DNA of 64,000 nt from assembly GCA_030625965.1 (NCBI GenBank), contig DAOUPV010000002.1:38902-102901 (forward strand), in the 5' to 3' direction. Both the position numbers and the translations under genes were made by a program. Below the pieces are notes generated by a model. It saw only the letters and a list, made by a program, of their open reading frames with translations, ran no database searches and was not told the origin of the DNA. Origin of the DNA: Clostridia bacterium. Its GTDB lineage: Bacteria > Bacillota > TC1 > UBA5767. Every line of letters begins with the position of its first letter. Position 1 is the stretch's first letter. Shown piece after piece: positions 8,569 to 35,565 of the stretch.

Positions 8569-9256
8569 AGAAATAGAAAAGTATAACGTACATTTGAGCG
8601 AAAGCCAACAACGCCTGCTTCAGGAATATAGTTCCCTTTTTCAGAAAACCAACGAAATGATGAATTTATCTGCCATACGGGCCCCGAAGGAAGTGGAAAT
8701 TAAGCATTTCCTTGACTCGCTGATTATTGCTAGTTATCTGGGCCTGTCAGGTAATGAGAGGGTGCTGGATCTAGGAACTGGGGGAGGATTCCCGGGTGTA
8801 CCCATTAAAGTGCTTTATCCGGGTACGAAGGTCTATTTTCTGGATTCCGTCCGCAAGAAACTGGAGTTCATCCGGTCATCCTGTGATCAGATGGGCCTAG
8901 AAGAAACCGAATTTCTACATCTAAGAGCAGAGGATGCAGGACATGACCCGGAGCTCCGTGCTTCTATGGATGTGGTTGTTGCACGAGCGGTAGCCTATCT
9001 TCCGGTTTTACTGGAATATGCTGCTCCTCTGATCAAGGTTGGAGGCTGCCTGGCTGCCGCTAAATTGCAAAAAGATCAGGAACTGGAAGAATCCAAGGGT
9101 GCTATGCAGGTACTGGGTATGAAGTTAGAAAGCCAGCATTCTTACCGCTTGCCGGGTAGCGATGAGACAAGACAAGTTCTGATTCTAAGGAAAACGGCGC
9201 CAACAGCCAAAAAGTACCCCAGAAGGGCTGGAGTTCCTAAAAAATCTCCACTTTAG
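8552..9256 (+). CDS. rsmG: 16S rRNA (guanine527-N7)-methyltransferase RsmG
   Basis: [23 protein letters not shown]-binding motif; overlaps the end of mnmG. Confidence 0.96.
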
Positions 9257-11539: not shown

Positions 11540-12571
11540 TTAAAATTCTATGTTGCCTGCAATAAGTTCCGCTTCAACTTCTGCCATACGATCTTTGACT
11601 TCCTGCGGTACGAAGTCCTCGAAATCATGGTAGTCGGAGAAGAATACTACGCCTTCTTTAACACCAAGACGGTAGACTTCAGCGTTCAGATTACCTTCCA
11701 TGAAGGTTTTATAGGCGAAATCAAAGGCTATAGGTACTTCCTTCATAACCGATACTACAACAGCAGAAGGTGCGATGTCGAATTGGTCTTGGTTGGCTCC
11801 GATGGCGTAAACACCACGCTCCTCACAAGCTTCGATGGATCCCAGACCTGCCTGATTGGCGATAGCGGCGACATAGTCGGCACCCTTATCTATGTAGGCA
11901 AGTGCGGTTTCTTTGGCTGCGGTTACATCGTCAAATGATCCAGTCATGCCGGATAGTACTTCTATTTCTGGGTTGATATATGCTGCGCCAGCTACAAAGC
12001 CATTGACTGCATTGGTGATGGGCGGGATTTCCAGACCACCGATAACACCTACTGTACCAGTTTCAGTCATCAAAGCGGCGAAAGCACCCATCAGGAAGCC
12101 TTGCTGCTCATCAGCAACTTGAACACAAGCCAGATTGGGCTCTGTAGGAGCGTTTCCGTTGATCAGAACAAACATGGTGTCTGGGAATTCAGCCGCCACG
12201 GCAAGTGCAGCATCAGTAAACTGCGAACCGTGACCGAAGATCAGATCATAGCCAATAGATGCGTAGCTGCGGAATACTTCTTCCATGTCTGACTGTGCGA
12301 CAGTCTCAGCATAGGAGATTTCGGCTCCGTATGTTTCTTCAATTAACTGCAAACCACCGTAAGCGGATGCGTTCCAACCCATATCATTGATGGGGCCGGG
12401 CAGCAGCAGTGCGACAGATGGTACTTCAGCAGGCTCCTCAGCAGGTTCCTCAGCAGGTTCCTCGGATGGTTCCTCAGCAGGTTCTTCAGGCTGGTCACCA
12501 GCACACCCCACGATGGAAAACAACATTGCGAGCATGAGAAACAGCGCAATACCTTTAAAAAGCTTTTTCAT
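11540..12571 (-). CDS. BMP/Med-family basic membrane lipoprotein (substrate-binding protein)
   Basis: Lipobox LFSIVGCAG, acidic EEPAEEPSEEPAEEPAEEPAE linker, then BMP-family domain (LLLPGPINDMGWNASAYGGLQ... VGVIGGLEIPPITNAVNGFVAGA). Confidence 0.88.
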   Translation of the reverse strand: MKKLFKGIALFLMLAMLFSIVGCAGDQPEEPAEEPSEEPAEEPAEEPAEVPSVALLLPGPINDMGWNASAYGGLQLIEETYGAEISYAETVAQSDMEEVFRSYASIGYDLIFGHGSQFTDAALAVAAEFPDTMFVLINGNAPTEPNLACVQVADEQQGFLMGAFAALMTETGTVGVIGGLEIPPITNAVNGFVAGAAYINPEIEVLSGMTGSFDDVTAAKETALAYIDKGADYVAAIANQAGLGSIEACEERGVYAIGANQDQFDIAPSAVVVSVMKEVPIAFDFAYKTFMEGNLNAEVYRLGVKEGVVFFSDYHDFEDFVPQEVKDRMAEVEAELIAGNIEF

Positions 12572-15186: not shown

Positions 15187-15215
15187 TTGACAATATTTAA
15201 GATGATTTGTATACT
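15187..15215 (+). promoter_or_regulatory. Sigma-A type promoter for leader RNA 1
   Basis: TTGACA (15187-15192), 17-nt spacer, TATACT (15210-15215). Confidence 0.75.
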
Positions 15216-15250
15216 TTACTAAAGATTTAAAAACAATTTAATAGCTAAAA

Positions 15251-15480
15251 AGAATTTTGTGAGGTGGGATAGACGAAGGTCTATCTGAGCTGAAGAAGCT
15301 TTAGACGGCAGAGTTCCGATTTGTAACTGTTCGCCATTTTGAAATGACAGTTTGTTGTGATGTTTCATTTCATGGTGCGTATGCAAACGGATTCTCTCAG
15401 TCTATGTGCTCGCATATGTGACATTGAATAACGCCACGACTTTCTGCTGAAAGAGCAGGAACAGTTGTGGCGTTTTTTTG
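15251..15480 (+). ncRNA. Structured leader RNA, copy 1 (riboswitch/attenuator candidate) upstream of iorAB-1
   Basis: Long conserved blocks shared with 20145-20384; hairpins GATAGAC/GTCTATC, GAAATGA/TCATTTC, CGTATGC/GCATATG; terminal AACGCCACGACT...AGTTGTGGCGTTTTTTT. Confidence 0.8.
15430..15480 (+). terminator. Intrinsic terminator of leader RNA 1
   Basis: AACGCCACGACTTTCTGCTgaaagAGCAGGAACAGTTGTGGCGTTTTTTTG. Confidence 0.88.
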
Positions 15481-15549: not shown

Positions 15550-17487
15550 GTGGTTGAGATTCGAGAGAATAGAAAGATGCTGCTGATGGGAAACGAGGCC
15601 ATTGCGCGAGGTGCTATTGAAGCCGGTGTCCAAGTAGTAGCTTCCTATCCGGGGACTCCATCTTCTGAGATCACGGAGAGCCTCATTGAACAGGCGGACG
15701 AGTTTGGGTATTACACACAATGGAGTACAAACGAGAAGGTCGCATTTGAGATCGCGGCTGGTGCCTCATTGGTTGGGGCACGTTCAATTACTTCCATGAA
15801 AAATGCGGGATTGAATGTGGCGATGGATACATTCATGACCATCCCCTATGGAGGATGCAAAGGTGGCTTCGTCGTTGCTGTGGCGGATGATCCTGATGCT
15901 CATTATTCTTCGACTGAACAGGATACGCGCGTTTTGGCGGCCTATGCTGAAATTCTGTGCATGGAGCCCGGTGACCAGCAGGAAGCCAAGGATATGACGA
16001 AAGAAGCATTCGAGCTTTCTGAGCGGTTTGAGTTGCCGGTGATGCTTCGGTCAGTCAGCAGGATCTCCCATGCCAGCGGAGATGTTGTATTGGGCGATGT
16101 AGAACAGGGCAGGAACAAAATCGGATTCAACAAGCATTACAAGGTTCCCTACAGATGGAATGTCTATGGCCCGCCAGGAGCCAGGTCGAAACATGAGTGG
16201 CTTCACCGGCAGTTGGTTGACATGAAAGCCTATTCCGAGCAATCCGGATTCAATGAAATCCGCATGGTTGAGGGTGCCAGGACAGGGATTATCGGTGTGG
16301 GACTGGGAGCATCCTATGCACAGGAGGCGATGCAGGAGCTGGAGATGCATGAGAGTATAAGCTTCTTAAAGGTTGGTATCCCGTTCCCTCTACCGGAAGA
16401 AAAGATACTGGCTTTTTTAAAAGCGCTGGATCGTGTGGCAATCATTGAAGAGGGAGATCCAGTCGTCGAGAACATGATCAGGGTCATTGCTCAATGCCAT
16501 GGCCTTGATGTTGAGATTGTCGGGAAGAATGCAGGCCGGATGTTCAACCCATGGGGCGAATTGAATCCGGATATAGTCCGCAAAGGCATTGCAGACTTCA
16601 TGCGTCTGAGCATTGCTGAGGATGAGGCACGTAACGCAATCAAGGCGGATATCAAAGAGCTGGTGACCACGAGATCGTCTGCGCTATGCCCGGGATGTTC
16701 GCATCTGGGGACCTACTGGGTTGTGCAGAAGATACTTAAGAAAATTCCCGGGGTGCATATCGTAAACGGGGATATCGGCTGTTATGAGCAGGGCGGTTAC
16801 GGAGAAGGTGGTAGAAAACCCGCAAGCGATGAGGTCAGCAAAAAATATAAACGTTCATCTCCATATGAAACACTTGATACGATCCATATCATGGGTAGTG
16901 GCATCGGTTTGGCGCAAGGCCAAGTTGCTGCAGGATATGAAGACGGCAAGGTGCTCGCTGTCTGCGGCGAGTCAACGTTTTTCCATGCGATTCTGCCGGC
17001 CATCGTCAATGCAGTATACAACGAATCAGATATTACATTCTTGATTTTGGACAATTCGTGGACAGCCATGACTGGGCACCAACCCAATCCGAGAACAGGC
17101 ATGAATACGAGAGGTGCGATCAAACCGGCTGATATATTCGATATCGTAAAATCGATGGGGGTCAAGCATGTAAGCCGCGGTAATGCGTTCAACCTGCAGG
17201 AAGCGGAAGAACTGCTTGCGGAGGCTGTTGAGGCGGAAGGCCTTTCCGTCCTGATACTGGAAGGTGAGTGCCAGCTTCAGAATGTACGCCGGAACAAGAT
17301 CACGGAAGGATTCATGCAGGTTAATCAGGATACCTGCAATGGTTGCAGAACGTGTGTAACCCTGGGATGTCCTTCGATCAAATTTGATGCTGTGACGAAG
17401 AAAGCCAGTATTGATCCGATTACCTGTTGCGATTGCGGCTTGTGTACTCAAGTGTGTCCTGTGCAATCGATAAGTAAGGGGATGTGA
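15550..17487 (+). CDS. iorA: Indolepyruvate:ferredoxin oxidoreductase alpha subunit (paralog 1)
   Basis: MGNEAIARGAIEAGVQVVASYPGTPSSEI; TPP domain GDIGCYEQ...CGESTFFHAILPA; C-terminal 2x[4Fe-4S] CNGCRTCVTLGCP / CCDCGLCTQVCP. Confidence 0.9.
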   Translation: MVEIRENRKMLLMGNEAIARGAIEAGVQVVASYPGTPSSEITESLIEQADEFGYYTQWSTNEKVAFEIAAGASLVGARSITSMKNAGLNVAMDTFMTIPYGGCKGGFVVAVADDPDAHYSSTEQDTRVLAAYAEILCMEPGDQQEAKDMTKEAFELSERFELPVMLRSVSRISHASGDVVLGDVEQGRNKIGFNKHYKVPYRWNVYGPPGARSKHEWLHRQLVDMKAYSEQSGFNEIRMVEGARTGIIGVGLGASYAQEAMQELEMHESISFLKVGIPFPLPEEKILAFLKALDRVAIIEEGDPVVENMIRVIAQCHGLDVEIVGKNAGRMFNPWGELNPDIVRKGIADFMRLSIAEDEARNAIKADIKELVTTRSSALCPGCSHLGTYWVVQKILKKIPGVHIVNGDIGCYEQGGYGEGGRKPASDEVSKKYKRSSPYETLDTIHIMGSGIGLAQGQVAAGYEDGKVLAVCGESTFFHAILPAIVNAVYNESDITFLILDNSWTAMTGHQPNPRTGMNTRGAIKPADIFDIVKSMGVKHVSRGNAFNLQEAEELLAEAVEAEGLSVLILEGECQLQNVRRNKITEGFMQVNQDTCNGCRTCVTLGCPSIKFDAVTKKASIDPITCCDCGLCTQVCPVQSISKGM

Positions 17488-17491
17488 GACC

Positions 17492-18106
17492 ATGACATAT
17501 AATTTGATAATTGCAGGCATTGGCGGTCAGGGCAGCATTCTGGCTTCCAGAATCGTGGCAGATGCCGCCATTCAAGCTGGTAGTGGAGTAGACGGTGATT
17601 TGAAAGTGAGAGTAGGGGAAACGTTCGGGGCCGCCATGCGTGGTGGATCTGTTGCGTCCCACGTTCGTATCGGGCCAGATGTAGGAGGGCCCCTGGTACC
17701 GAAAAATGCAGCACAGGCGATTCTTGCGCTGGAGCCCCTTGAAGGACTGCGTATAGGGATCCCCTATCTGGCACCTAGCGGCTTGGCAATACTTAACACC
17801 TCCGAGGTTATGCCTATTGATGTGAAAGTGGGCGCTGCTAGCTATCCCAAATTGGAGACGATCAAAGCGGCTCTTGAAAGTCTGGAAGGAAGAGTTTATC
17901 TGCTCGATGCGACCAGTCTGGCGCTGGAGGCCGGTAATGCAAAAACGGTAAGCGCTGTTATGCTGGGCGCCTGGGCAAATCTGGCGGAACTCCCCTTCGC
18001 CCTAGAGCAACTTAAAGAGGCGCTGCAAGGTCGAGTGCCGCCAAAAACGGTTTCTACGAATATGAAAGCATTTCAGCTTGGATTTGAGGCGGTTGCTTCA
18101 GACTAA
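17492..18106 (+). CDS. iorB: Indolepyruvate:ferredoxin oxidoreductase beta subunit (paralog 1)
   Basis: IAGIGGQGSILASRIVADAAI...RVGETFGAAMRGGSVASHVRIG. Confidence 0.9.
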   Translation: MTYNLIIAGIGGQGSILASRIVADAAIQAGSGVDGDLKVRVGETFGAAMRGGSVASHVRIGPDVGGPLVPKNAAQAILALEPLEGLRIGIPYLAPSGLAILNTSEVMPIDVKVGAASYPKLETIKAALESLEGRVYLLDATSLALEAGNAKTVSAVMLGAWANLAELPFALEQLKEALQGRVPPKTVSTNMKAFQLGFEAVASD

Positions 18107-18209: not shown

Positions 18210-20003
18210 ATGAATACTACTTATATCCTGGTAATTTTGATTGCGTATCTTTTACTCATGATTTACTTGGGTTTCTTCTTCAAAAACAGGATCAACACAT
18301 TCGACGATTTCATCTTAGGAGGGCGAGACTTGCCATGGTTCGTGATTTCCATGACCATGCTGGCGACACTTGCCAATGCACAACAGACGCTCGGTATTGC
18401 AGGTAACAGCTATATTTTGGGCTTGGCCCCTATGCTTTGGTACTTTATTCTGGTAAATATCTTCATTTACCCCCTTATGATTCGTCTAGGTAGTCGGTAC
18501 CGCTATCTGAAATTCTCCACGGTTGTCGATATGGGGGAAGAGCGCTATCCTAACAGCGGCCGGATGACCATTGTACTTAGCATCTGGCAGGTTGCATGGG
18601 CTGTGGTTAGTACGGCAATTTGCATCTTTGGTGGCGGACTCGTGATTGAGACGGTTTTTGGAGTGCCACTCGCATTTGCCTGCGGGATTGTAACGATTAT
18701 TACTGTAGCCTATTGCGTGATGGGCGGCCTCAATGCTGTTGTATTTACCGATACCATTCAATGGCTAATCATCATCGCAGGTACGGCGTTCCTGGTGCCT
18801 GCTGTATTCTCGAAATTCGGTAGTTTCTCTGTCTTCTTCTCCGCCATATTGGGGAGCTCAGGCATGTTACCCGCGGAGGGGGCAACCTTGTGGCCTGGGT
18901 TTACGGACTTGTTTACCTTGCCGCAAGGAGTGACCGCCTTAGGACTGATTTCCATGGGCCTGGCCGGAGCCTTATGGATCCCGATCGATCTGGGCTATAT
19001 GCAGAGAATGCTTTCAGCGAAAGACATCAAGCATAGCCGTAAAGCAGCGTTGGGCTTTCTGGTAATTGTCACGCTTTGGGCGATCATCATGGTTGTGATG
19101 GGTATCTATGGTACAGTGCTGTTCCCGAATGTCGCAAACACGGACACTGTGATTCTGCTGATGGCCGAGGCTGCTATGCCAGGGATAGGCTTGGCCATTT
19201 TCGTGACTGCGATCGCTGCTGCAGTCATGAGTACGGCATCCACCTATATGAATGCGGGGGCTGCCATCATTGCTAAGAATATCTACAAGCGCTTTTTTAA
19301 CAAGAGTGCTGAAGATGCAAAGCTGATTAAAGTTGCCAGGATATCCATCATAATCATTGCTGTAGCAGCGCTTGGATTTGCGCCCTTTGTGCGCAGTAGC
19401 GGTGTGTTCAATACTGCAATCACTTTCCAGATGATCATGTGTGCATCTCTTACACCCCTGATCATACTGAGTACCTACTGGAAGCGAATGACCGAAGGGG
19501 CAGCTTTCTGGGGATGCGTTATTAGTGGCGTGATCACAGCTGCGTTGGTTATGAGAGCTGGTGGTGGCGGTGCGGTATTCTTTGGCGCTGGCATAGCTGG
19601 TATCCCTGCGATTTTTATAGGCCTAGTCCTATCAACGTTAATCTATGTGACATGGAGTATGAATAAACCATACGATGCCAGTAGTGTAGGACCCGCGTTC
19701 AGGAAGATTTTTGAGGGCGAGGAAAAGATGGAGAAAACCTCCAATAGGGACCTGGCCGTTATCGGTACTGCCATTGTTGTTCTCCTGATATCCATCGGCG
19801 TGCGTTCCATTCCGGGCAGAACATTTAATGCCTGGCCAGCGTTGAGCGGTATAGGTGGACGTTTGACCGACTGGTTCCTGATTGCTGACGGAATAGCCAT
19901 CTTCTTCATTTGCCTGTTTATCCTTGGACGTACCTTCAAGTGGGTGGTCGGATTGAAAAAACAGCAGAATGGCGAATCGTTGCCGGAAGACCAATCTGTT
20001 TAG
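18210..20003 (+). CDS. Sodium:solute symporter (SSS) family transporter
   Basis: 597-aa multi-TM protein; N-terminal FDDFILGGRDLPWFVISMTMLATLANAQQTLG and AAVMSTASTYMNAGAAIIAKNIYKRF typical of SSS. Confidence 0.88.
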   Translation: MNTTYILVILIAYLLLMIYLGFFFKNRINTFDDFILGGRDLPWFVISMTMLATLANAQQTLGIAGNSYILGLAPMLWYFILVNIFIYPLMIRLGSRYRYLKFSTVVDMGEERYPNSGRMTIVLSIWQVAWAVVSTAICIFGGGLVIETVFGVPLAFACGIVTIITVAYCVMGGLNAVVFTDTIQWLIIIAGTAFLVPAVFSKFGSFSVFFSAILGSSGMLPAEGATLWPGFTDLFTLPQGVTALGLISMGLAGALWIPIDLGYMQRMLSAKDIKHSRKAALGFLVIVTLWAIIMVVMGIYGTVLFPNVANTDTVILLMAEAAMPGIGLAIFVTAIAAAVMSTASTYMNAGAAIIAKNIYKRFFNKSAEDAKLIKVARISIIIIAVAALGFAPFVRSSGVFNTAITFQMIMCASLTPLIILSTYWKRMTEGAAFWGCVISGVITAALVMRAGGGGAVFFGAGIAGIPAIFIGLVLSTLIYVTWSMNKPYDASSVGPAFRKIFEGEEKMEKTSNRDLAVIGTAIVVLLISIGVRSIPGRTFNAWPALSGIGGRLTDWFLIADGIAIFFICLFILGRTFKWVVGLKKQQNGESLPEDQSV

Positions 20004-20089: not shown

Positions 20090-20118
20090 TTGACAGACTA
20101 AAATGTTTGAAATATGAT
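20090..20118 (+). promoter_or_regulatory. Sigma-A type promoter for leader RNA 2
   Basis: TTGACA (20090-20095), 17-nt spacer, TATGAT (20113-20118). Confidence 0.75.
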
Positions 20119-20144
20119 TAATATATAAATACAATTACATATAA

Positions 20145-20384
20145 AGAATTTTGTGAGGTGGGATAGACCCTAGGATCTATCTGAGCTGAAGAAGCTTTTT
20201 AGACGGCAGAGTTCCGTATTTGTTGATGTTCGCCATTTTGGAAATGACAGTCAGTTGTGACGTTTCATTTCATGGCGCATGTGCAAACGGATGCTCCATG
20301 CCTTCCACACTCGCATATGTGACAGTGAATAACGCCACAACTTTCTGCCAACAATGGTAGAAATCAGTTGTGGCGTTATTTTTG
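20145..20384 (+). ncRNA. Structured leader RNA, copy 2 (riboswitch/attenuator candidate) upstream of hyuA
   Basis: Homologous to 15251-15480; GATAGA/TCTATC, CGCCAT..GAAATGA/TCATTTC..ATGGCG, CATGTGC/GCATATG, terminator AACGCCACAACT...AGTTGTGGCGTTATTTTTG. Confidence 0.8.
20331..20383 (+). terminator. Intrinsic terminator of leader RNA 2
   Basis: AACGCCACAACTTTCTGCCaacaatGGTAGAAATCAGTTGTGGCGTTATTTTTG. Confidence 0.85.
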
Positions 20385-20428: not shown

Positions 20429-22495
20429 ATGAGATATCGAATCGGTGTTGATATTGGAGGGACATTTACTGACTGTGTAGTGATTGGGGATAACAATCAG
20501 ATCCATACATTCAAGGAAATGTCTACTCCGGAAGATCAGTCAATTGGGCTTTACAATGTTATTCATAAAGCGTCTAGTTTTTTCGATAAGGGCTTAGATG
20601 AATTCTTGGAGGGGGCAGACTTATTCGTACATGGGACCACTGTGGCGACCAACACGTTGTTGACAGGTACAGGGGCGAAGACAGGGCTAATCCTGACAAA
20701 AGGTTTTCGGGATACGATAGAGATGCGAAGGGCTCATAAAGACAATATTTGGGATCTCAATCTCTTCACTCCACCACCATTAGTACCCCGTTATTTGCGG
20801 TGTGGTGTGGAAGAACGTATGAATTATTTGGGAGAAGAAGTCCTTCCATTGAATGAGCAGGACGTACTTGATGTGTGTGAAGGATTGAGAGAGGAAAAGG
20901 TAGATGCTGTTGCTATTTGCACACTCTTTTCCTATCTGAATGACAAGAATGAAAAGCGTATTAAGGAGATTGTAGAAGAACAGTTGCCAGATGCGTTTGT
21001 GTCTCGATCCTCTGAAGTATTACCTCAAATCCGCGAGTACGAGAGACAATCGACAACAGTAGCCAATGCCTATGTAGGACCTAAACTGACCGTATACTTG
21101 AAGAATCTAGAAAAGAAACTAAAGAATGACGGACTGAAAAAGGCCTTCTATGTCGTAGCATCCAATGGAGGTATGATGATGGCCGATACAGCGATACGAC
21201 ACGCTTCTGCCACCCTCCTTTCCGGCCCTGCCGCCGGCGCCACAGGTGCTATGTTCTTTGCTAACTTAGTCGATAATCCCAATCTGATCTTGTTGGATAT
21301 GGGTGGTACGTCTTTTGACGTGAGCTTGATTAACAACGCAGGTGTAACTCTATCTACAGAAGGTGAAATCGCTGGCTATCGAGTTGCAAAACCCATGATC
21401 GATATCCACACGATCGGTGCTGGTGGCGGTTCGGTTGCTTGGCTTGACAGCTGGGGGATGATCAACGTCGGACCTGAATCTGCCTATTCGAATCCCGGCC
21501 CTGTCTGTTATGGCCGTGGTGGTGTGAAACCGACGGTGACAGACGCCAATCTCCTGCTTGGGTATTTGAACAAAGACTACTTCCTCGGCGGAGAGATGGA
21601 AATTGACTTTGAAAAGTGCCACAGCATCATGAAAGAGAAAATAGCTGACAAAATGGGTATGAGCGTTGAAGAAGCAGCCAGTGGAGTATTCCAGATCGTC
21701 AACCAGAGCATGGCTGATGCCACCAAGGTGGTTTCTGTGCAAAAAGGGTATGATCCTCGTGAGTTTGCCCTGGTCAGTGCTGGAGGTGCTTGCTCCATCC
21801 ACGCTTGCAAGATTGCAGAAGAGGTTGGCTCCAAGACCATTTACGTACCTAAGGCGGCCTCGGTATTCTGCGCTCTCGGTATGTTAGAATCCGACATCCG
21901 ACTAGACAGTGTACGGAGCTTTACGGGCACCATTCCCGGGATGAATCTGGAGGACATGAATCAGGTCATCGCCGATACGGAACAGACCGCGATGGGCGAA
22001 TTGCTCCAAGAAGGTAGTAGTCGGGAAGAGTCATCTCTGGAACGCTATCTGGACGTACGCTATGTCGGACAGCACCACGAGGTTACCTTGCCTATTCCTA
22101 ACGACTGCACACTAACAGAGAAGCAAGTGGAAGAAATCGCGAACACTTTCCATGAGGCTCACGAACGACTGTACAGTTATAGCACACCTGAAACACCGAT
22201 TGAGATCGTTAACTTACGTATTACGGCAGTCGGCCATGTTGAGAAGACCGGCATGGAGAAAAAGGAAGCGGTCAAGCAGAGTGTAAATGATGCAATCAAG
22301 AATAGAAGAGCGATTTATTTCGAGGAGTATGAAGATTGGAAGGAAGTCCCCGTATATGATCGGAACATGCTCCATCCGGGACATGAAATTGAGGGACCTG
22401 CTGTTTTGGAAGAACGAATTACCACCATCATAGTGCATCCCAAATGGAATGCTAGGATTGATGACTTTGGCAACGTGATCATGGAGGTGAAATAA
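20429..22495 (+). CDS. hyuA: Hydantoinase/oxoprolinase family subunit A (HyuA)
   Basis: MRYRIGVDIGGTFTDCVVIG; ILLDMGGTSFDVSLI; DIHTIGAGGGSVAWLDSWGMINVGPESAYSNPGPVCYGRGG. Confidence 0.93.
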   Translation: MRYRIGVDIGGTFTDCVVIGDNNQIHTFKEMSTPEDQSIGLYNVIHKASSFFDKGLDEFLEGADLFVHGTTVATNTLLTGTGAKTGLILTKGFRDTIEMRRAHKDNIWDLNLFTPPPLVPRYLRCGVEERMNYLGEEVLPLNEQDVLDVCEGLREEKVDAVAICTLFSYLNDKNEKRIKEIVEEQLPDAFVSRSSEVLPQIREYERQSTTVANAYVGPKLTVYLKNLEKKLKNDGLKKAFYVVASNGGMMMADTAIRHASATLLSGPAAGATGAMFFANLVDNPNLILLDMGGTSFDVSLINNAGVTLSTEGEIAGYRVAKPMIDIHTIGAGGGSVAWLDSWGMINVGPESAYSNPGPVCYGRGGVKPTVTDANLLLGYLNKDYFLGGEMEIDFEKCHSIMKEKIADKMGMSVEEAASGVFQIVNQSMADATKVVSVQKGYDPREFALVSAGGACSIHACKIAEEVGSKTIYVPKAASVFCALGMLESDIRLDSVRSFTGTIPGMNLEDMNQVIADTEQTAMGELLQEGSSREESSLERYLDVRYVGQHHEVTLPIPNDCTLTEKQVEEIANTFHEAHERLYSYSTPETPIEIVNLRITAVGHVEKTGMEKKEAVKQSVNDAIKNRRAIYFEEYEDWKEVPVYDRNMLHPGHEIEGPAVLEERITTIIVHPKWNARIDDFGNVIMEVK

Positions 22496-24255
22496 TGGCT
22501 ATCTCTAATGAAAGAAAAACAGAATTTGAAGGTGCGAAAGATCCGATTACGTTTGCGGTTATCTACAATCGCCTACTGACTATCAACCGTGAAATGGGTA
22601 TCACTATGATTAACACCTCAATCTCACCCATTTTTGCAGAAGTACATGATTTCTCTTGCGCTATCTGTGATTGGGAGAACCGAATCGTATCCCAAGTAGA
22701 CGGCGTCCCCTCGCATACTGCATCAGCCATGGAGTCAGTACGTGCCATTGCAAGGTATTTTGGTGATGATATCAATCCCGGAGATGTGTTTGTTTTGAAC
22801 GATCCTTATAACGGAGGCACACATCTACAGGATGTGACCATCATGAAGCCGGTTTTCTTCGAAGAACGTCTTCAGTTCTTCGCCATCAACCGCGCACACC
22901 ATGGCGACGTGGGAGGAATGGAACCAGGTTCCTATTGTCCGACAGCTACGGAACTTTTCCATGAAGGGATCAGGATTCCACCAGTGCGTATCTACAAGAA
23001 TGAAAAACCGATCCAGGATGTGGTCGATATGATTCGCATCAATACCAGAATGCCAGATGATCTGTGGGTCGATGTAAAAGCTCAGATAGCTTCATGTCGA
23101 GTCGGAGAAAAGCGAATACTGGAAATGATGGAGAAATACGGGGAGAGAAAAACCCGTGAGACCATTGAGGATATCCATATGTATGCGGAAAACCGTATGC
23201 GGGATGAAATCACGAAGCTTCCTGATGGAGTCTACCACGGACATTCAATCCTCGATTCGGATGGATTATCGGACGATCCTATTGATATCAAGGTGACGAT
23301 CACCATTGACGGTGATGAAGCTTTGGTTGATTTCGTAGGTAGCAGCCCACAGGTGACAGGCCCGAGTAACTCTCCCATTGCCAATACAGAGACGTGCGTC
23401 TATGTTGCCTTTCTGACAACAGTCACAACGCCGGATATCCCCCACAATGAAGGAGTATACAGACCGATTAAGATTACAGCTCCAGCTGGCAGTGTAGTCA
23501 ATTCCGAATTTCCGGCCCCGGTAGCGTACTGTACCCTGGATACAGCGTGCGCGATCCTGGAAGCATGTTGGATGGCCATGGCAGATATCCTTCCTGACAG
23601 AGTACCTGCAGGTTGGAATCGCTGGAATGGACCAACCATCACCGGAGTGGATCCACGTAATGAAGCTTTCTACGTCATGTTTGGATTCAACGGTTTTGGC
23701 GGCGCAGGGGCTTCGAAAGGTGAGGATGGACGCCATTACATCGGAGACGGTATTGATCTTGGTGGCTTGATTGCACCCAATATCGAAACCAACGAAGTGG
23801 ATTATCCCCATATCACCGAGTTCAATGAGTTCGATACCGATTCATGTGGGGCAGGTGAATTCAGAGGCGGATGTGGTGCCAAGTACAAGATCAAATACTA
23901 TGATGAGGCTCAAACCGATATGGTGATGTTCGGCGACGGACGGATCAATCCGCCGTATGCCCTGTTTGGTGGAAAGCCAGGTTCGCTGAATATGGCGTAC
24001 ATCAACGAGGGTACAGATAAAGAGGAACTCTTGAAATCCAAGGGCGCCGTGTCGCTGCCGAACGGCGGAAGTTTCTCGACGTATCCGTCTGGTGGAGGCG
24101 GCTGGGGAGATCCCAAAAAGCGTTCTGCCGAAAAGGTGCGGCTGGATGTGAAGAATGGATATATCTCCCGTCAAGCAGCAAACGATGTGTACGGTGTCTC
24201 CCTGACAGATGAGTTGGAGATCAATGTCGAGTCGACAGCGCAATTGCGTAGTTAG
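22495..24255 (+). CDS. hyuB: Hydantoinase B/oxoprolinase family subunit (HyuB)
   Basis: DPITFAVIYNRLLTINREMGITMINTSISPIFAE; NDPYNGGTHLQDVTIMKPVF; GGGGWGDPKKR C-terminus. Confidence 0.93.
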   Translation: MAISNERKTEFEGAKDPITFAVIYNRLLTINREMGITMINTSISPIFAEVHDFSCAICDWENRIVSQVDGVPSHTASAMESVRAIARYFGDDINPGDVFVLNDPYNGGTHLQDVTIMKPVFFEERLQFFAINRAHHGDVGGMEPGSYCPTATELFHEGIRIPPVRIYKNEKPIQDVVDMIRINTRMPDDLWVDVKAQIASCRVGEKRILEMMEKYGERKTRETIEDIHMYAENRMRDEITKLPDGVYHGHSILDSDGLSDDPIDIKVTITIDGDEALVDFVGSSPQVTGPSNSPIANTETCVYVAFLTTVTTPDIPHNEGVYRPIKITAPAGSVVNSEFPAPVAYCTLDTACAILEACWMAMADILPDRVPAGWNRWNGPTITGVDPRNEAFYVMFGFNGFGGAGASKGEDGRHYIGDGIDLGGLIAPNIETNEVDYPHITEFNEFDTDSCGAGEFRGGCGAKYKIKYYDEAQTDMVMFGDGRINPPYALFGGKPGSLNMAYINEGTDKEELLKSKGAVSLPNGGSFSTYPSGGGGWGDPKKRSAEKVRLDVKNGYISRQAANDVYGVSLTDELEINVESTAQLRS

Positions 24256-24300
24256 TCTAGGAGTGAAGATTCAAGAAAAATTTAATGGAGGTATTTTATT

Positions 24301-25434
24301 ATGAGTGACAGAATTGCAATTCTGGGCGCTGGCAATGGTGGTTTCATGAGTGCGGTCGATATGGCTGGTTTGGGCTATGAAGTTGCGCTATTTGATAGCT
24401 TACCAGGCCGATTGGAAGGTGTAAAGAAGACTGGTGGTATAGAACTGTGTGACATCGATTCCAAGCCTACAGGAGAGTTCGGCAAGGTTAAAGTTGCAGC
24501 TGACGAGATTAAGGATGCAGTAGAGGGAGCCAGTATCATACTGAATCCCGTACCATTCTTCGCAGTGAAAACCTATGCAGATCTGGCTGCGCCGTATATC
24601 ACAGATGGACAGATCATAATCTGTCTCGGCAAAGGTGGTGCTTCCCTGGTCTGGAAGAAAGCATTGGATGATGCGGGCAACAAAGCCGAGGTTTATCTTG
24701 CCGATTGTAATACCTTGCCATACGGCGCATCAAGACTAAATGACACACAGGTGCGTTTGGAAGCACGCACGCAGAATCTGATGTTTGCTACGTTCCCTGC
24801 CAAAGATGCAGATTATATTTGGGAGACGCTTGAAAAGATTTATCCTGAAGAACACGGATATAGCCTGCGACGTGGCCAAAACGTAATCGATACCCTGTTG
24901 GTGGACTACAATGCCATCACGCATACTCCGCCGATGATCTGTAACGCTGCCAGAATCGACAGTGGAGATCCTACTTTCCACTTGTTCGGCGTGGAAGAAA
25001 ATCCCAAGCCAGTTGTCAATTTGATAGAAGGCATTGACAGAGAGCGGATGGCAATCGGTGAGAAACTGGGATTGAAACAGTATCCATTGGAGGAAGAGAT
25101 CTACATGGTCAAATGGAATCGGGAGGGCGCAGATTATGTATTGCCTATCTACGAGGCTATACACACTCCTTTCCTGGAGGTATGCGAGGGCCCATTCAAA
25201 TTGGATGTACGACATCTGGTTGAGGATATTCCGTACGGCTTGGTGACCTATTCTTCACTAGGACGTCTGGTAGGTGTACCCACTCCAGTTTGCGACGCGG
25301 TCACGACGATAGCAGAATCCTTGCTGGGGCGTGATTTCCATAATGAATGTCGCACGACTGCAGAACTTGGACTACCAGACGATTGGTCGGTAGACCAGAT
25401 AAAGCAATATCTACATGAAGGCAAAGTTGAGTAG
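24301..25434 (+). CDS. NAD/NADP octopine/nopaline (opine) dehydrogenase family protein
   Basis: Rossmann IAILGAGNGGFMSAVDMAGLGYEVALFD; opine-DH C-terminal pattern VDYNAITHTPPMICNAARIDSG. Confidence 0.8.
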   Translation: MSDRIAILGAGNGGFMSAVDMAGLGYEVALFDSLPGRLEGVKKTGGIELCDIDSKPTGEFGKVKVAADEIKDAVEGASIILNPVPFFAVKTYADLAAPYITDGQIIICLGKGGASLVWKKALDDAGNKAEVYLADCNTLPYGASRLNDTQVRLEARTQNLMFATFPAKDADYIWETLEKIYPEEHGYSLRRGQNVIDTLLVDYNAITHTPPMICNAARIDSGDPTFHLFGVEENPKPVVNLIEGIDRERMAIGEKLGLKQYPLEEEIYMVKWNREGADYVLPIYEAIHTPFLEVCEGPFKLDVRHLVEDIPYGLVTYSSLGRLVGVPTPVCDAVTTIAESLLGRDFHNECRTTAELGLPDDWSVDQIKQYLHEGKVE

Positions 25435-25501
25435 TTGGCGCATACAAGCAGTCTGTATTCAAATCTAGTGTTTGGTAAAAAAAAGATATGGAGGAATTAG
25501 C

Positions 25502-26494
25502 ATGAGAGAGTTACAAGGAAGAAGCATCTTAGGTATCAACGAACTTACTGCAGATGAAATCAGATTTATTCTCGACACATCCCACGACTTCAAGCGTAAG
25601 TGGAAGACCGGGGAGCTCCACGAATATCTTCGGGGCAAGAGTCTTGCCGGTATCTTTGCAACCCAGTCTACTCGCACAAGCTCATCATTCGAAACGGCCA
25701 TGACTGCTTTGGGAGGCCATATGCTGTGGTTGGACAAAAGCCGCATCTGGGCAGGTACAGCAGCAGCTGAATCCTGGCCTGATACCATCAGAACCCTTAC
25801 AAGATACGTGCACGGGATCGCCTATCGTCCAGTGAATCGCCAGATGTTGGATTTGACTGAAGAATTGGCAAGTGTTCCCGTCATCAATGCTTCATGTCCG
25901 GTCGAGCATCCTACCCAGGCGCTTGCAGACGTGATGACCATGCAGGAGCATGGCGGCGGCAGCGTCAAGAAAGCCAAGGTGGCTTTACTCTGGGGCTACG
26001 GAGAATTGAATCCTCCTTGCGGCCTACCCAACTCAACGCTGGCCATGGCCACACGCATGGGCTTTGATGTCAGCATCGCATGTCCCGAAGGCATGGATCC
26101 GGACGCCAATTATATTAATGCAGCCATGAAGGAAAGCACTGCGGGCGGATCGAAGATCGAGATTGTGCGGTCTTATGAAGAAGCCACCAAGGACGCTGAC
26201 TTCATAAACGTATATTCTTGGGTGAGTCCTGAAATCTTTGCGGAAGGTCCGGAAACCGGATATCGTGGCAATCCTGAATTCGCGAAATATAAGGAATCAC
26301 TCAAGGACTGGTGTGTTACTAAGGACATAGTCAATACAGCGCCTAAGAGTGTCAAAGTTATGCATTGCCTACCGGCAGCCCGTGAAGAAGAGGTTACGAG
26401 TGAAGTGCTTGATGCGCCCAATTCCATCATCTTTGATGAGGCAGAAAACAGAATGCATACGATTAAGGCTTTGCTAGCACTTACGCTAGGATAA
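25502..26494 (+). CDS. Aspartate/ornithine carbamoyltransferase superfamily protein (YgeW-like; not a canonical OTC)
   Basis: Carbamoyl-phosphate motif STRTSSSFETAM, EHPTQALADVMTM, MHCLPAAREEEV; canonical ornithine-binding SMG replaced (NVYSWVSPEIF). Confidence 0.82.
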   Translation: MRELQGRSILGINELTADEIRFILDTSHDFKRKWKTGELHEYLRGKSLAGIFATQSTRTSSSFETAMTALGGHMLWLDKSRIWAGTAAAESWPDTIRTLTRYVHGIAYRPVNRQMLDLTEELASVPVINASCPVEHPTQALADVMTMQEHGGGSVKKAKVALLWGYGELNPPCGLPNSTLAMATRMGFDVSIACPEGMDPDANYINAAMKESTAGGSKIEIVRSYEEATKDADFINVYSWVSPEIFAEGPETGYRGNPEFAKYKESLKDWCVTKDIVNTAPKSVKVMHCLPAAREEEVTSEVLDAPNSIIFDEAENRMHTIKALLALTLG

Positions 26495-27158
26495 GTAATG
26501 AAGATGCTGATCCCAGATGGGAAGCGCAAATCAGTGCTTCCCCAAGGGTTGTATTGCAGGAGCAGAATCGCCTGCGAAAATTTCTAAAACAAGATTCTTA
26601 TCAAGTTAGCCAAGAAGCAATATTTCATCTCCTTTCAATGAATAACCTATCAAGCTGATGACAATTCATATATGGAAGAGCCACTACAGGACCATAGTTC
26701 AGACGATGGCCAAAATAGAAAGCGACGTAGCCAGGGCATGTTTTATGGCCATCGGAGCGGCGCAGGGGCTTCTTTCATACTCTAGAATCATCTTTATTGA
26801 GGCGGATTGGCTAGCATTTTTCGAATATGGTAACGGCGAACAGGTCTACTCCACCTGTTCGCGACGTTTGCCATTTGGTAATGGACGGTTTTGCATGATC
26901 ATAGTACATCATAGCGTTGAATTATAACTGACACCCAGGCAGACATAAGAATTCGCCATTTTACTTGAGAATATCTCAACCGAATGGGAATTTCGATATG
27001 CAAAATCTTATTTATAAGGGGGTGGAAGATTTACAGAAGCATTGTTGCCAACACAGACTGACTGTGTTGAGAAAATGTTTGTAAATGGAGTGCGCTCTTT
27101 GATAGACGTGCTTTCTGAGAAAAGATTCAATACCAAAAAAATGATGGAGGTGAATCAC

Positions 27159-28538
27159 ATGACAAACAATATTGAAAATGACGGAAAACTTGGCGTCCTT
27201 GCATGCACAATGATTCTCATCGGTGGAATGGTAGGCTCAGCAGTATTTTCTCTTTCAGGCGTTACTTATGCAATCGCTGGTCCGGCTAGTATCATCAGCT
27301 GGGTCGTAGCAGGTATTATTCTAATGGTTTTTGGTCTAATGGCCGCTGAACTTGGCGTGATCTATCCTGAGTCAGGCGGAGCCTTTGTTTTTCCTTATAA
27401 AGCCTTGGGCAAAACAAAAAGAAGCAAAGAAGCCTGGGGATGGTTTACGGCTTGGTTATACTTGAATGTAAACCTCTTCGGAGCTGCCTTTTCTGCAATC
27501 TATATTGCAAATTATCTTGGCACGGCTTTTCCAGTCTTTGCGCCCTATCAGACACAGTTAGCTGTAATCTGGTGCTTGGCTTGCGGACTGCTGACGATGC
27601 TGAACATAACGATTGCCGGTAAAGTCAATCTAGTTCTGGTGCTTGTTTTGATCGCGTTGATCCTGGTGTATTGCTTTGCTGGTTTAGGAGCTTTTAATCC
27701 AGAGCACTTTACACCTTTCTTTACACAAGGAGCAGGGGGTACGTTTGGTTTCATCGGGGCGATTCCCATTGCCATGTTAGCCTATGGAGCGATCGTTGCC
27801 ATTGCATTTATGGTTTCGCAGGTAAGGAATCCCAAAAAAACAGTGCCACGTGCGGTTCTGACAGCGACTGTGGTTGCAGTTGTATTGTACACTGCTGTGA
27901 TTATCATTACTACAGGCCTGTTGAGAGCCAGCTACTTCAACGCAGCGGAAACAGCTTGGGCACAGTATGTGCCGTTATATGCAGCAGCTTGGACGACATT
28001 GTATAGTCTGCCTTGGTTGCCCGCAGTCATTTCTATTGCTGCTGTCTTAGCGCTTACGACTACCTTGTTGGTATTGATGATGATATCTGGCTGGACCATT
28101 CAATCGGCAGCTGCCAAGGGCTTGTTGCCTGCAGGCTTATCAAAAATCAATGGCAAGACCAAAGCGCCTGTCAATGCGATGTTGCTGACCATGATCGTTG
28201 TTACCCTCCTTTCGGTGATTCCGGATTTCACTAATGTTTTGATCCACGCCGGAGCGATATCTCTTGCGTTGGTTGTTTGTATCATGTCCATAACTCTGAT
28301 TGCTGCTCGTAAACAGAATGTACGTAAACCGGGCGATTTCCGGTTGTTCGGAGGCAGTGTTGTTCCCGTGATCCTATCGATAGCTGTTTTGTATTTCATT
28401 TTGCCAGGCGTATACCAGGCATGGTCTTACTGGGGCATTACTGCGATTTGGTTTTTCGCAGGAGCTGTCATATTCGGATTCTTGCAGATTACTCAGAGGA
28501 GTGAGATTGAGAATGATGTTTCTGAGGAGAGTGTGTGA
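27159..28538 (+). CDS. APC-family amino acid permease (antiporter-like)
   Basis: LGVLACTMILIGGMVGSAVFSLSGVTYAIAGPASIISWVVAGI; ~12 TM; start MTNNIENDGKLG. Confidence 0.85.
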   Translation: MTNNIENDGKLGVLACTMILIGGMVGSAVFSLSGVTYAIAGPASIISWVVAGIILMVFGLMAAELGVIYPESGGAFVFPYKALGKTKRSKEAWGWFTAWLYLNVNLFGAAFSAIYIANYLGTAFPVFAPYQTQLAVIWCLACGLLTMLNITIAGKVNLVLVLVLIALILVYCFAGLGAFNPEHFTPFFTQGAGGTFGFIGAIPIAMLAYGAIVAIAFMVSQVRNPKKTVPRAVLTATVVAVVLYTAVIIITTGLLRASYFNAAETAWAQYVPLYAAAWTTLYSLPWLPAVISIAAVLALTTTLLVLMMISGWTIQSAAAKGLLPAGLSKINGKTKAPVNAMLLTMIVVTLLSVIPDFTNVLIHAGAISLALVVCIMSITLIAARKQNVRKPGDFRLFGGSVVPVILSIAVLYFILPGVYQAWSYWGITAIWFFAGAVIFGFLQITQRSEIENDVSEESV

Positions 28539-28957
28539 TAGAAAATATATAGTGTGATTTTCTAAATAAATATATTGATTGGAGCAATTGTTATGGCAAG
28601 TTCGACTTGCCATAACGGCTCTGATTAAGTAATTGTACAATTCCCCGGATTTGAATTTGTAAGGTTTCATCAGTTCCAAATATATCATACGCCATTATAA
28701 TTATTCATTCATATTTCATAATATGTTCATCCATCATGCTGAAATGAATTTCCAATCTTTAGTATACAGTGCAACATAACTATTTTGCGGGGAAGTATTA
28801 CGAGTCAAGAATTACTAGAAAATGTTTATTATCATTAATATCAGGCATCTATTTTCGTGTTTTGCGATGAAAGAATGGGTAAGACTCTAATAGAAGTTGT
28901 GCTATCCATTGAATATTGTTTGAATACGAACAAAATATAATTTTCATAGGAGGAAAT

Positions 28958-30142
28958 ATGGATTTAAGTGTAGATATTGCAGGGATTAAATTAAACAGCC
29001 CGATTATTTCTTCATCCGGTGTGGACGGTAAGGATGGTGAGCGCATTCAACAGATCAGTGAATACAATCTTGGAGCGGCAACGACCAAGACCATTGTCAA
29101 AGATATGTTTGTTGATGTAATACCTAATATGAAAGCCGTCAAGGGTGGCTCGATGATCAACTGTGTTTTCGGGGCCAACCTCACTTCTGACCAGTGGTTC
29201 AAGGAAGAATTTCCCAAGGCGTTGGAGGCAGGCATTCCCATCATTGCCAATATGGCCGGGCAGAATCCCGATGAAGCCATCGAACTGGCGAAGGGCTGTG
29301 AGGCAGCTGGTGCGAGTTTCATTGAGTACCCAACAGCGTGCCCCCACATGGGCAACATTCTGGAGGCCATGTATCCCGGTTTGAAGATCGACTTGCCGGA
29401 AGTGTCTGATCCAAGTGAATATGCCCGCCAGATCGAGGCGGTAAAGAAAGCGGTCAATATCCCCGTGATTGCGAAATTCAGTGCGATTTATCATCTGAAC
29501 TGCAAAGAATGGGCGAAGGCGGTCGTAGAGGCAGGTGCTGACGTAATTTCCACAGCGGACTCTATCGGTCCGGCGATAGGCATTGATATCGAGACAGGAC
29601 AACCGCTCCTGGGTGGTCCCAAGGGCTATGGAGGCCTTACCGGGGCAGCCCTGAAACCCCTGGTGCTGCGTATGGTGATGGAGATAACCGAGGCGGTCGA
29701 CGTGCCAGTGATCGGTATCGGTGGTATTGCCACCGGAGCAGATGCGATCGAGTATATCATGGCGGGTGCATCAGCAGTGGCCATGGCTTCATCTACCACG
29801 ATGTACGGATATGAGCGGTATGGCGACGTCTATGACGGCATTGTCAAATTCATGAAACGCAAAGGCTACAACAGCCTTGATGAAATACGGGGCCTGGCCC
29901 ACAAGCGGATTGCCGAGCGGGTGGAGAATGAGCAACAAATCATCCATACTCCTTTAGTTCCGACTCGTAACATGGGCGTGTGCAATTCTTGTCTCAATTG
30001 CTTGATGGCTTGTCCTTACGGGGCGATTGATATGGGTGAAACTGGTCCTATATTCATCGAAGAAAATTGCCATGGATGCGGCATGTGTGTTTCCGTCTGC
30101 GGCAACAATGCCATTTCGCAGCAATATTACAAGGTGGATTAA
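28958..30142 (+). CDS. preA: Dihydropyrimidine dehydrogenase PreA-like / dihydroorotate dehydrogenase-family protein with C-terminal 2x[4Fe-4S]
   Basis: MDLSVDIAGIKLNSPIISSSGVDG; GGIATGADAIEYIMAGASAV; CNSCLNCLMACPYGAI / CHGCGMCVSVCGNNAI. Confidence 0.8.
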   Translation: MDLSVDIAGIKLNSPIISSSGVDGKDGERIQQISEYNLGAATTKTIVKDMFVDVIPNMKAVKGGSMINCVFGANLTSDQWFKEEFPKALEAGIPIIANMAGQNPDEAIELAKGCEAAGASFIEYPTACPHMGNILEAMYPGLKIDLPEVSDPSEYARQIEAVKKAVNIPVIAKFSAIYHLNCKEWAKAVVEAGADVISTADSIGPAIGIDIETGQPLLGGPKGYGGLTGAALKPLVLRMVMEITEAVDVPVIGIGGIATGADAIEYIMAGASAVAMASSTTMYGYERYGDVYDGIVKFMKRKGYNSLDEIRGLAHKRIAERVENEQQIIHTPLVPTRNMGVCNSCLNCLMACPYGAIDMGETGPIFIEENCHGCGMCVSVCGNNAISQQYYKVD

Positions 30143-30163
30143 AGTAGTAAAGGAGGAGATTCT

Positions 30164-31543
30164 GTGATTGATCTATTGATTAAAAATGCTCTGGTGCTGA
30201 CTTTTGATAAAGGTGCTGCCTCTGGCAAAATGATTGAAAACGGAGCGGTGGCGATTAAGGGTAATACCATTGCCGACCTTGGGGATAGCGATACTTTGTC
30301 CAAAATGTATCCAGGTGCTGAAACCATAGATGCCAAGGGGAAAATCGTGATGCCTGGTTTTATCGTGACCCATACCCATATGTCTTATGTATTAGGCCAC
30401 AACATGCCAGTGGATTTTTCTCAGGTACAGGATTTCTGGGATATGCTGCAGAAAATGGGCTGGGAGTGGCTGGAGGACCTCATCACACAAGAAGGCGTCT
30501 ATGCCGCTACACGTTATTCTGCCACAAAATTACTAAAGAGCGGAACGACGACGGTATGTGAATTCGTTGAAGGGCCGAATGCGTTACCAGGTATTTTGGA
30601 TGCTAGCGCCAAAGCCATTGAAGAGACGGGGATTCGGGCTCAACTTGGATTCGAGGTGACGGAACGCGTACCAGGTGAACATATTCTCGAGAGGGTATCC
30701 CTGGTGAATGCAGATAAAGCGTTTGCTGAAAACGTCGCTTTTTTTGAAAAATATCCTGGTGGTAAGGACTCGCGCATCCAAGGACGGCTTGGCCTGCATA
30801 CCGCTTTTACCAACTCGCGTTCGACAATGGAAAAGGCAAGAAAGATTGCCAATCAGTATGACGTAGGCATCCAGGTGCATATCGCTGAAATTCCTCGGGC
30901 ATTTATGCTTGAGAAGCACGGCATGTCTGCACCACAAATCCTTGAAGAAACAGGAGTATTGGGACCCGATGTAATTGCGGCGCATTGTATCGATTTGACA
31001 GATGAAGATGTAGCGATTCTTGCGCGCAACAATGTTAATATCTCCCATACCCCCATGACCAACTCTTTTGGCGGAAACGGTGTAGCGAGAGTGCCTTTCA
31101 TGATGGATCAAGGCCTTAATATGACGATTGGACACGACTGTTTCTTCTCTCTGGATATTGCCGAATATCTGCGTTATACCTTTTTGTTGCACAAGGCGCA
31201 CCAAGCCAATGCTGGGCTGTTGCCCATAACGCAAGTCTTGGATATGCTGCTGGGCAATGCGGCGCGGGCTCTGGGGATGGAAAAACAGATAGGAAGTCTT
31301 AAAATAGGCAAGAAGGCAGATCTGATTATCATTAATCCGAACAGTCCGACACCGATAGCCCCTTGCTCAGCGCTGAGCTATTATAATATGACGTTCCAAG
31401 GGCAGCATGTGGAGACTGTCATCGTGGATGGACAAATCGTTGTTAAAGATGGTCAAGCTACCTTGGTGGATGAGGTTGAAACGATGAGAGAGTGCCAGGA
31501 ACAAGCAAAAATCCTGTGGCGCAAAAACGGGATTACGATCTAG
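30164..31543 (+). CDS. Amidohydrolase family protein (SsnA/TRZ-ATZ-like deaminase)
   Basis: PGFIVTHTHMSYVLG metal motif; IQVHIAEI; DVIAAHCIDLTDEDVAILARNNVNISHTPMTN; IGHDC. Confidence 0.82.
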   Translation: MIDLLIKNALVLTFDKGAASGKMIENGAVAIKGNTIADLGDSDTLSKMYPGAETIDAKGKIVMPGFIVTHTHMSYVLGHNMPVDFSQVQDFWDMLQKMGWEWLEDLITQEGVYAATRYSATKLLKSGTTTVCEFVEGPNALPGILDASAKAIEETGIRAQLGFEVTERVPGEHILERVSLVNADKAFAENVAFFEKYPGGKDSRIQGRLGLHTAFTNSRSTMEKARKIANQYDVGIQVHIAEIPRAFMLEKHGMSAPQILEETGVLGPDVIAAHCIDLTDEDVAILARNNVNISHTPMTNSFGGNGVARVPFMMDQGLNMTIGHDCFFSLDIAEYLRYTFLLHKAHQANAGLLPITQVLDMLLGNAARALGMEKQIGSLKIGKKADLIIINPNSPTPIAPCSALSYYNMTFQGQHVETVIVDGQIVVKDGQATLVDEVETMRECQEQAKILWRKNGITI

Positions 31544-31566
31544 AAGAGGAAGAGACGGAGGGAATC

Positions 31567-32913
31567 ATGGTTAAGCCTGAAACACTACATGCTGTACTTA
31601 ATGCAAAGACCGTATCTGTGGTCGGCGCATCCAGCAATCCTGACAAAACTGGATACCAAGTGTTAAAGAATATCTTAGACGCCGGATATCAGGGACGTAT
31701 CTATCCGATTAACCTAAAGGCAGAGTCGATTCTGGATATTAATTGCTATCCATCGCTGCTTGACGTACCAGAGGATCTCGATCTGGTAGTGATTGTTGTG
31801 CCGGCTGCTGCAGTGCCGGAAGTGATGCAACAAGCTGCGGATAAAAATGCAAGGGGGGCTGTCATAATTAGTGGCGGCTTCCGTGAGATCGGGAATGTAG
31901 AGCTGGAAAATGAGGTGATGGGGATCGCCAACGCTCATGATATTGCAGTAATCGGGCCCAATTGCCAGGGAATAAATTATACGCCGAACAAGCTGTGCGC
32001 CTGCTGGCCTTTGCTGACCAAACGAGGCGGAATGGCCGTGATTGCGCAAAGCGGTACCATTGGAGCGACCATGGGCGGCTGGGCAGAGGATGAAGAGATT
32101 GGATTTTCTGCTTTGTTGGCGCTGGGGAACAAGAGCGGCGTTGGTGAGATTGAGCTACTGGATTATTTTGCATCAGATGAGGAAACAAAGGTTATTGCCT
32201 TGAATATTGAAGGTGTCAAGGATGGTAGAGCTTTTATAAAGACCGCGAAGTCGGCACTTTCAAAGAAACCGGTGGTTGTACTCAAACCAGGACGTACCCG
32301 AAAAGGTGCGGAAGCCGCGCAAAGCCATACCAAATCCATTGCAGGCAGCGACAAGGTTTTTGAAGCTGTGTGCAAACAGACCGGGCTGATCAGGGCGGAA
32401 GGTATCTGCGAGTTCTATGACTACAGCAAGATACTGAGCATGCTGGATGCGCCGTTAGGGAGGAGGATGCTGGTAATAACCAGCAGTGGAGGAAGCGGTA
32501 TCTTGGCAGCTGATACAGCGGAGGATCTAGGTATCGAGCTGAAACAGTTGTCTACGGATATCAAAGACAGACTCAAGGAGATTCTTCCGAATCAGTGTGT
32601 CGTATCCAATCCACTGGACCTGACCGGTGATGCTACGGCTAATCGGTATATGCAAGCACTTGATGTTGCCATCACCTCGGAGGTAATCGATTGCATACTG
32701 GTTATATTCGGGGATCCGGTTCATAAAGCCAGCGATGTGGTGCGGGACATATCTAGTAGGACGGATAAACCGATCGTTGTTGCCTTTTTGGGTGGCGGCG
32801 ATGTAGAAAAAGAAGAGGTGCTTTTGATGCATCAAGCAGGTATTCCAGCCTTCCCCACGCCTGAACGTGCTGTCCGTGCGATAGGTGCTCTTCTGAAGAA
32901 GAAAAACTACTGA
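31567..32913 (+). CDS. ADP-forming acyl-CoA synthetase alpha subunit (CoA-binding/succinyl-CoA ligase-like)
   Basis: VSVVGASSNPDKTGYQVLKNILDAGYQGRIYPIN; IGPNCQGINY; ITSSGGSGILAADTAEDLGIEL. Confidence 0.85.
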   Translation: MVKPETLHAVLNAKTVSVVGASSNPDKTGYQVLKNILDAGYQGRIYPINLKAESILDINCYPSLLDVPEDLDLVVIVVPAAAVPEVMQQAADKNARGAVIISGGFREIGNVELENEVMGIANAHDIAVIGPNCQGINYTPNKLCACWPLLTKRGGMAVIAQSGTIGATMGGWAEDEEIGFSALLALGNKSGVGEIELLDYFASDEETKVIALNIEGVKDGRAFIKTAKSALSKKPVVVLKPGRTRKGAEAAQSHTKSIAGSDKVFEAVCKQTGLIRAEGICEFYDYSKILSMLDAPLGRRMLVITSSGGSGILAADTAEDLGIELKQLSTDIKDRLKEILPNQCVVSNPLDLTGDATANRYMQALDVAITSEVIDCILVIFGDPVHKASDVVRDISSRTDKPIVVAFLGGGDVEKEEVLLMHQAGIPAFPTPERAVRAIGALLKKKNY

Positions 32914-32952
32914 GAAGATGTCATATTCGACTGACATAAAGGAGAGAAAATT

Positions 32953-34911: not shown

Positions 34912-34913
34912 TG

Positions 34914-35543: not shown

Positions 35544-35565
35544 CTGAGAATAGAGGAGGTCAGAT

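Follow-up and report, generated by a model that had tools for sequence, protein, structure and literature searches.

A structured leader RNA in a Clostridia genome is probably an orphan attenuator with a proposed pseudoknot antiterminator

Two catabolic operons in a 64,000-nucleotide stretch of a Clostridia bacterium genome (contig DAOUPV010000002.1, positions 38,902 to 102,901; hereafter the window) start with similar leaders, in each of which the loop of a long hairpin arm resembles one strand of the terminator that follows. Could such a loop capture the terminator and thereby control readthrough? Both leaders are structured RNAs that follow a sigma-70-like promoter and end in an intrinsic terminator, and each shows the layout of a transcription-attenuation leader: promoter, structured 5' untranslated region, hairpin with a T run, and first gene. 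Over the leader and the terminator, the first leader (copy 1) is 84% identical to the second (copy 2) and 98% identical to a third, located elsewhere in the genome (copy 3). The z scores of the folds relative to shuffled sequences are -5.7 and -7.6 for copies 1 and 2 with the terminator, and -3.15 and -4.3 without it. We read the leader as a new orphan attenuator that is probably a riboswitch, with a candidate pseudoknot antiterminator.

The central observation is the complementarity between the apical loop of the long arm, which we call P4 (P3 in the preliminary description of this DNA), and the 5' arm of the terminator. In copy 1, GTTGTGATGTT (15354-15364) can pair with AACGCCACGAC (15430-15440) at 10 of 11 positions, eight of them Watson-Crick. 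In copy 2, GTTGTGACGTT (20254-20264) pairs with AACGCCACAAC (20331-20341), also at 10 of 11 positions, all Watson-Crick, and the addition of A20253-T20342 extends this to 11 of 12. Each copy has a single mismatch, an A opposite a C both times. The positions, the letters and the pair counts given earlier for both leaders, including the G.U pairs of copy 1, were exact when we rechecked them. It had also been claimed that the loop mimics the 3' arm of the terminator (GTTGTGGCGTT in both copies), and this is borne out by copy 2, where the loop CAGTTGTGACGTT (20252-20264) matches the terminator 3' strand CAGTTGTGGCGTT at 12 of 13 positions. The pairing between loop and arm is one mismatch weaker than the terminator itself. 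Among all ungapped partners of the terminator 5' arm within each leader, the 11-nucleotide loop segment ranks first, the runners-up reaching eight and seven pairs. Two of the differences between copies 1 and 2 fall in this pairing, T15361>C in the loop and G15438>A in the arm, and each converts a G.U into a Watson-Crick pair and strengthens the helix. By comparison, 10 Watson-Crick pairs are found in 0.6% of all two-substitution neighbours of copy 1 and in 5% of those made by transitions only. As to covariation of the pairing, what the homologous copies offer are these two single-side changes.

How surprising is the match? Dinucleotide shuffles of each leader reached 10 pairs anywhere with a frequency of 0.017 (copy 1) and 0.008 (copy 2), and within the loop with a frequency of 4e-4 and 6e-4, respectively. 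The copies are homologous and hence are not two independent observations. For this reason we also shuffled the alignment columns jointly, keeping the two copies aligned, which gave P=0.003 for a match anywhere in the leader and P=1.5e-4 for one in the loop. In the real sequence of the window, the two strands together offer 127,980 positions, of which 10 reach 10 pairs with the arm of copy 1 and 7 with that of copy 2; most of these are the loops and the terminator arms themselves. If one takes the loop as the obvious site to examine, the match exceeds chance; without that assumption it is modest.

The arrangement has the layout of an H-type pseudoknot: the loop segment abuts the 3' strand of its own stem without a linker, and a linker of six nucleotides lies on the other side. 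Pseudoknot and terminator potentially overlap, the upstream loop of each copy being complementary to the 5' arm of its terminator. In the mechanism that we propose, a leader of about 170 nucleotides would be closed by the helix P1, with the intrinsic terminator beginning about 15 nucleotides later. Once transcribed, the terminator 5' arm would be captured by the apical loop of P4, giving a pseudoknot in which a stem 1 of about 7 base pairs (bp) adjoins a stem 2 of about 10 bp without a linker, and in which the loop L1 has six nucleotides. As long as the pseudoknot held, the terminator would be blocked and transcription would read through into the catabolic operon. Were the leader fold left unstabilised, the loop would be displaced by the 3' arm of the terminator and transcription would stop. 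The stabiliser would be a metabolite of the controlled pathway (hydantoin-, ureide- or purine-like) and would favour the pseudoknotted state, making the leader an ON switch. We favour this sign because the genes are catabolic. We infer the formation of the pseudoknot, its control of readthrough, the ligand and the sign of the switch; as a whole explanation, the P4-loop antiterminator with a ligand-stabilised ON switch has in our judgement about even chances. A continuous 17-nucleotide duplex between loop and arm, including CAG/CUG, was rejected for an intact stem because the loop would be left without nucleotides to turn back.

Rough energies, computed with an assumed pseudoknot penalty of 9.6 kcal/mol, give an idea of when the switch could act. 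Before the terminator 3' arm is made, the pseudoknot of copy 2 lies 1.0-1.7 kcal/mol above the best ordinary fold, and that of copy 1 about 3 kcal/mol above it (8 at one transcript length). At full length, the terminator is favoured by an estimated 13-23 kcal/mol. Any antitermination would therefore be cotranscriptional and would probably need stabilisation by a ligand.

Several results speak against the pseudoknot. Its estimated energy is never below that of the best ordinary fold. The minimum-energy folds of some transcription intermediates contain a different antiterminator, in which the P1 5' strand pairs with the same terminator arm, in both copies (transcripts ending at 15440-15460 and at 20355). 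A gapped free-energy test of the pairing over the whole leader was not significant (0.83 in copy 1, 0.13 in copy 2); the same test restricted to the loop gave 0.025 and 0.002. Finally, our searches, described below, did not find homologs outside this genome, and hence there is no independent covariation. The mutually exclusive pseudoknot antiterminator of the preliminary description fits the geometry, but it has to share the terminator arm with a second antiterminator given by ordinary folding.

This second antiterminator provides the strongest alternative. The P1 5' strand and bases upstream of it (conserved AGAA..UUGU..GGUG, about 15250-15266) would pair with the extended 5' arm of the terminator (CGCCACRAC-UUUCU, 15430-15447). 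A ligand would then lock P1 and cause termination, i.e. the leader would be an OFF switch, and the match of the P4 loop would be a secondary feature or an accident. This form beats the P1 form by about 3 kcal/mol at 15440 in copy 1, and it would account for two conserved sequences, AAAGAATTT upstream of P1 and TTTCTGC in the terminator arm. Yet it is barely favoured in copy 2, its duplex is weaker than that of the loop (-6.5/-6.8 versus -9.6/-12.6), and when tested at its place the pairing falls short of significance (P 0.16 and 0.09). An OFF switch is also less expected for catabolic genes. We regard this alternative as serious, if rather unlikely.

The P4 loop might instead have another role in a structured attenuator, such as a ligand pocket or a tertiary contact, its likeness to the terminator 3' arm being a coincidence inherited by the copies. 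A coincidence would be in keeping with the common descent of the copies, which makes them effectively one observation, with the energy test over the entire leader, whose best value lacks significance, and with a P of about 0.01 per copy if no location is specified in advance. The joint test and the two substitutions, both of which improve the pairing, argue against it, and we consider it unlikely. Least probable is attenuation by a leader peptide, or an antiterminator that binds a protein or a small RNA in place of a metabolite: copies 1 and 2 share a similar short frame, MTVxCDVSFHGA, from the ATG at 15344 and 20244 (frames 15344-15418 and 20244-20357), with several of the copy differences in third codon positions, but no Shine-Dalgarno-like sequence was found ahead of either ATG, the frames hold no run of a single amino acid, and their ends are not kept (25 versus 38 codons, because of an indel), so that we rejected the leader peptide.

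Comparison with copy 3 (G000:C116:20788-21014; L008 about 8789-9015) offers a different kind of evidence. With 6 differing sites among 233 in the leader and terminator, copies 3 and 1 are more alike there than in their noncoding flanks, which differ at 19 of 134 sites (P=4e-5). No substitution has accumulated in the loop or in the terminator, and the promoter hexamers are the same, with a diverged spacer. The higher conservation of the leader and terminator relative to the flanks indicates that selection acts on the leader RNA. Downstream of copy 3 is a truncated iorA fragment, followed by another sodium:solute symporter. Here the leader, the promoter and about 88 iorA codons are duplicated ahead of a different symporter operon, and the iorA fragment stops early.

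Table 1. Features of the two leaders and of the genes behind them (window coordinates).
Feature	Position	Strand	Basis or remark
Sigma-70-like promoter TTGACA-17-TATACT, copy 1	15187..15215	+	11/12 consensus matches
Structured leader RNA, copy 1	15248..15428	+	identity to other copies; fold z
P1 5' strand TGTGAG	15258..15263	+	pairs with CTCGCA 15409-15414; fold, alifold
P2 hairpin GGATAGAC/GTCTATCT	15267..15286	+	fold, alifold
Small hairpin GAGCT-GAAGA-AGCTT	15287..15301	+	fold
Long arm P4, base TCCG/CGGA	15315..15391	+	fold, alifold
P4 apical 7-bp helix GAAATGA/TCATTTC	15341-15347/15365-15371	+	closes 17-nucleotide loop
Loop segment GTTGTGATGTT, copy 1	15354..15364	+	10/11 pairs with 15430-15440; same in copy 3
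Intrinsic terminator hairpin, copy 1	15430..15474	+	5' arm 15430-15440, 3' arm 15464-15474, T run to about 15480; -28.3 kcal/mol
Copy 1 operon: iorA/iorB-like indolepyruvate ferredoxin oxidoreductase subunits	15550..18106	+	TIGR03336 E 2e-188, TIGR03334 E 5e-55, both under the curated cut-off
Sodium:solute symporter, copy 1 operon	18210..20003	+	PF00474
Promoter TTGACA-17-TATGAT, copy 2	20090..20118	+	11/12 consensus matches
Structured leader RNA, copy 2	20142..20330	+	alignment with copies 1 and 3; fold z
Loop segment GTTGTGACGTT, copy 2	20254..20264	+	pairs with 20331-20341
Intrinsic terminator, copy 2	20331..20377	+	5' arm 20331-20341, 3' arm 20367-20377, then ATTTTTG; -32.8 kcal/mol
Copy 2 operon: hydantoinase/oxoprolinase A and B, octopine-dehydrogenase-domain protein, ornithine-carbamoyltransferase-like enzyme	20429..26494	+	PF01968, PF02538, PF02317, PF00185

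We then asked if the leader belongs to a known family. None of the three copies has a covariance-model match at gathering score among the 4227 families of Rfam 15, and permissive scans with E up to 10 gave only weak matches far under threshold. The look-alikes in these scans (microRNAs, rhtB, RAGATH-7-assoc) were rejected for such scores, and no T-box match was found at E up to 10. A covariance model built from the three copies themselves (R1) retrieved only these copies in 10 genomes of the class, and likewise in two largely overlapping sets of 399 and 398 genomes of the phylum, searched with strict filters. It found no further copy in the regions upstream of 29 hydantoinase-A homologs. A fourth hit in the genome of origin (C57; 12.5 bits, E 5.65) was attributed to chance, as it shares only a hairpin and GAGCTGAAG, and by eye lies upstream of the likely promoter. 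We also scanned 85,488 species genomes for a pattern that had to match exactly; R1 scored none of the 43 hits as a relative. Eight of them agree in their spacing, being one and the same coding sequence, recognisable as RNase Y from its translation; the other hits that we inspected look coding. Two hits in viral contigs were discarded because both fall in a common coding gene of phages, a second viral pattern had no hits, and blastn searches of plasmids and phages gave no match. Since the pattern scan required exact matches and the phylum filters were strict, diverged relatives may exist.

Known riboswitches provide precedents for the proposed logic. In the fluoride (crcB) riboswitch, one sequence serves as both pseudoknot tract and terminator base, the pseudoknot is the first to form during transcription, and the ligand prevents invasion by the terminator (PMC11077080). 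The transcriptional type opposes pseudoknot and terminator as we propose here. It does so with a compact aptamer and a 6-bp pseudoknot, whereas our leaders span about 170 nucleotides, have a candidate helix of 10-11 bp that involves the tip loop of a long arm, and do not match the fluoride Rfam family. The ZTP (pfl) riboswitch also sets a long-range pseudoknot against a terminator hairpin, with readthrough when the ligand keeps the fold (PMC10907184). Beyond this competition, the leader described here differs from it in sequence, helix order and gene context, and has no Rfam match to it. In the Guanidine-IV riboswitch, the loop of an upstream hairpin promotes readthrough by contacting part of the terminator hairpin (PMC11611296; PMC10907184). 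That contact is made with the terminator's loop (a kissing loop), while the one proposed here involves the 5' strand of its stem, and again there is no Rfam match. Finally, the NMT1 (xanthine/uric acid) riboswitch is associated with purine-oxidation genes (PMC7373994). Here the likeness is one of gene context, as xanthine-dehydrogenase-like and SsnA-like genes are also present in the window; the RNA is different and has no match to this family at E up to 10. By Rfam score the leader belongs to none of these families, and by analogy it would work like the fluoride and ZTP riboswitches if our reading of the switch holds.

The gene context bears on the possible ligand. The copy 2 operon, with its hydantoinase A and B, octopine-dehydrogenase-domain and ornithine-carbamoyltransferase-like genes, opens a long run of catabolic genes (20429-38882). 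The run also includes an amino acid permease, PreA-like, SsnA-like amidohydrolase and CoA-ligase-like genes, and a molybdopterin dehydrogenase. This composition suggests the breakdown of hydantoins, ureides or purines with recovery of carbamoyl phosphate. The same cluster holds a second iorA-like gene (32953-34911), 59% identical to the iorA behind copy 1, and R1 found no leader of this kind before it. Lipoproteins resembling the BMP family, called by eye from the translations, are encoded at 11540-12571 of the window and at L090 2-829, the latter close to a nucleoside-deaminase-like frame.

What would the leader mean for this bacterium? It might represent a new riboswitch class, so far with a single genome, whose ligand would be a metabolite of the hydantoin, ureide or creatinine type and whose switch would be a long aptamer arm with an apical loop that seizes the 5' strand of the terminator; this more specific proposal is tentative, and we hold it well short of even chances. 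The three natural copies are ready-made constructs to test it. If true, the leader would be an orphan riboswitch candidate for catabolism of the hydantoin/ureide type. It would also show that the contest between pseudoknot and terminator known from small riboswitches extends to a much larger leader, with the switch at the tip of a long arm and not in the core.
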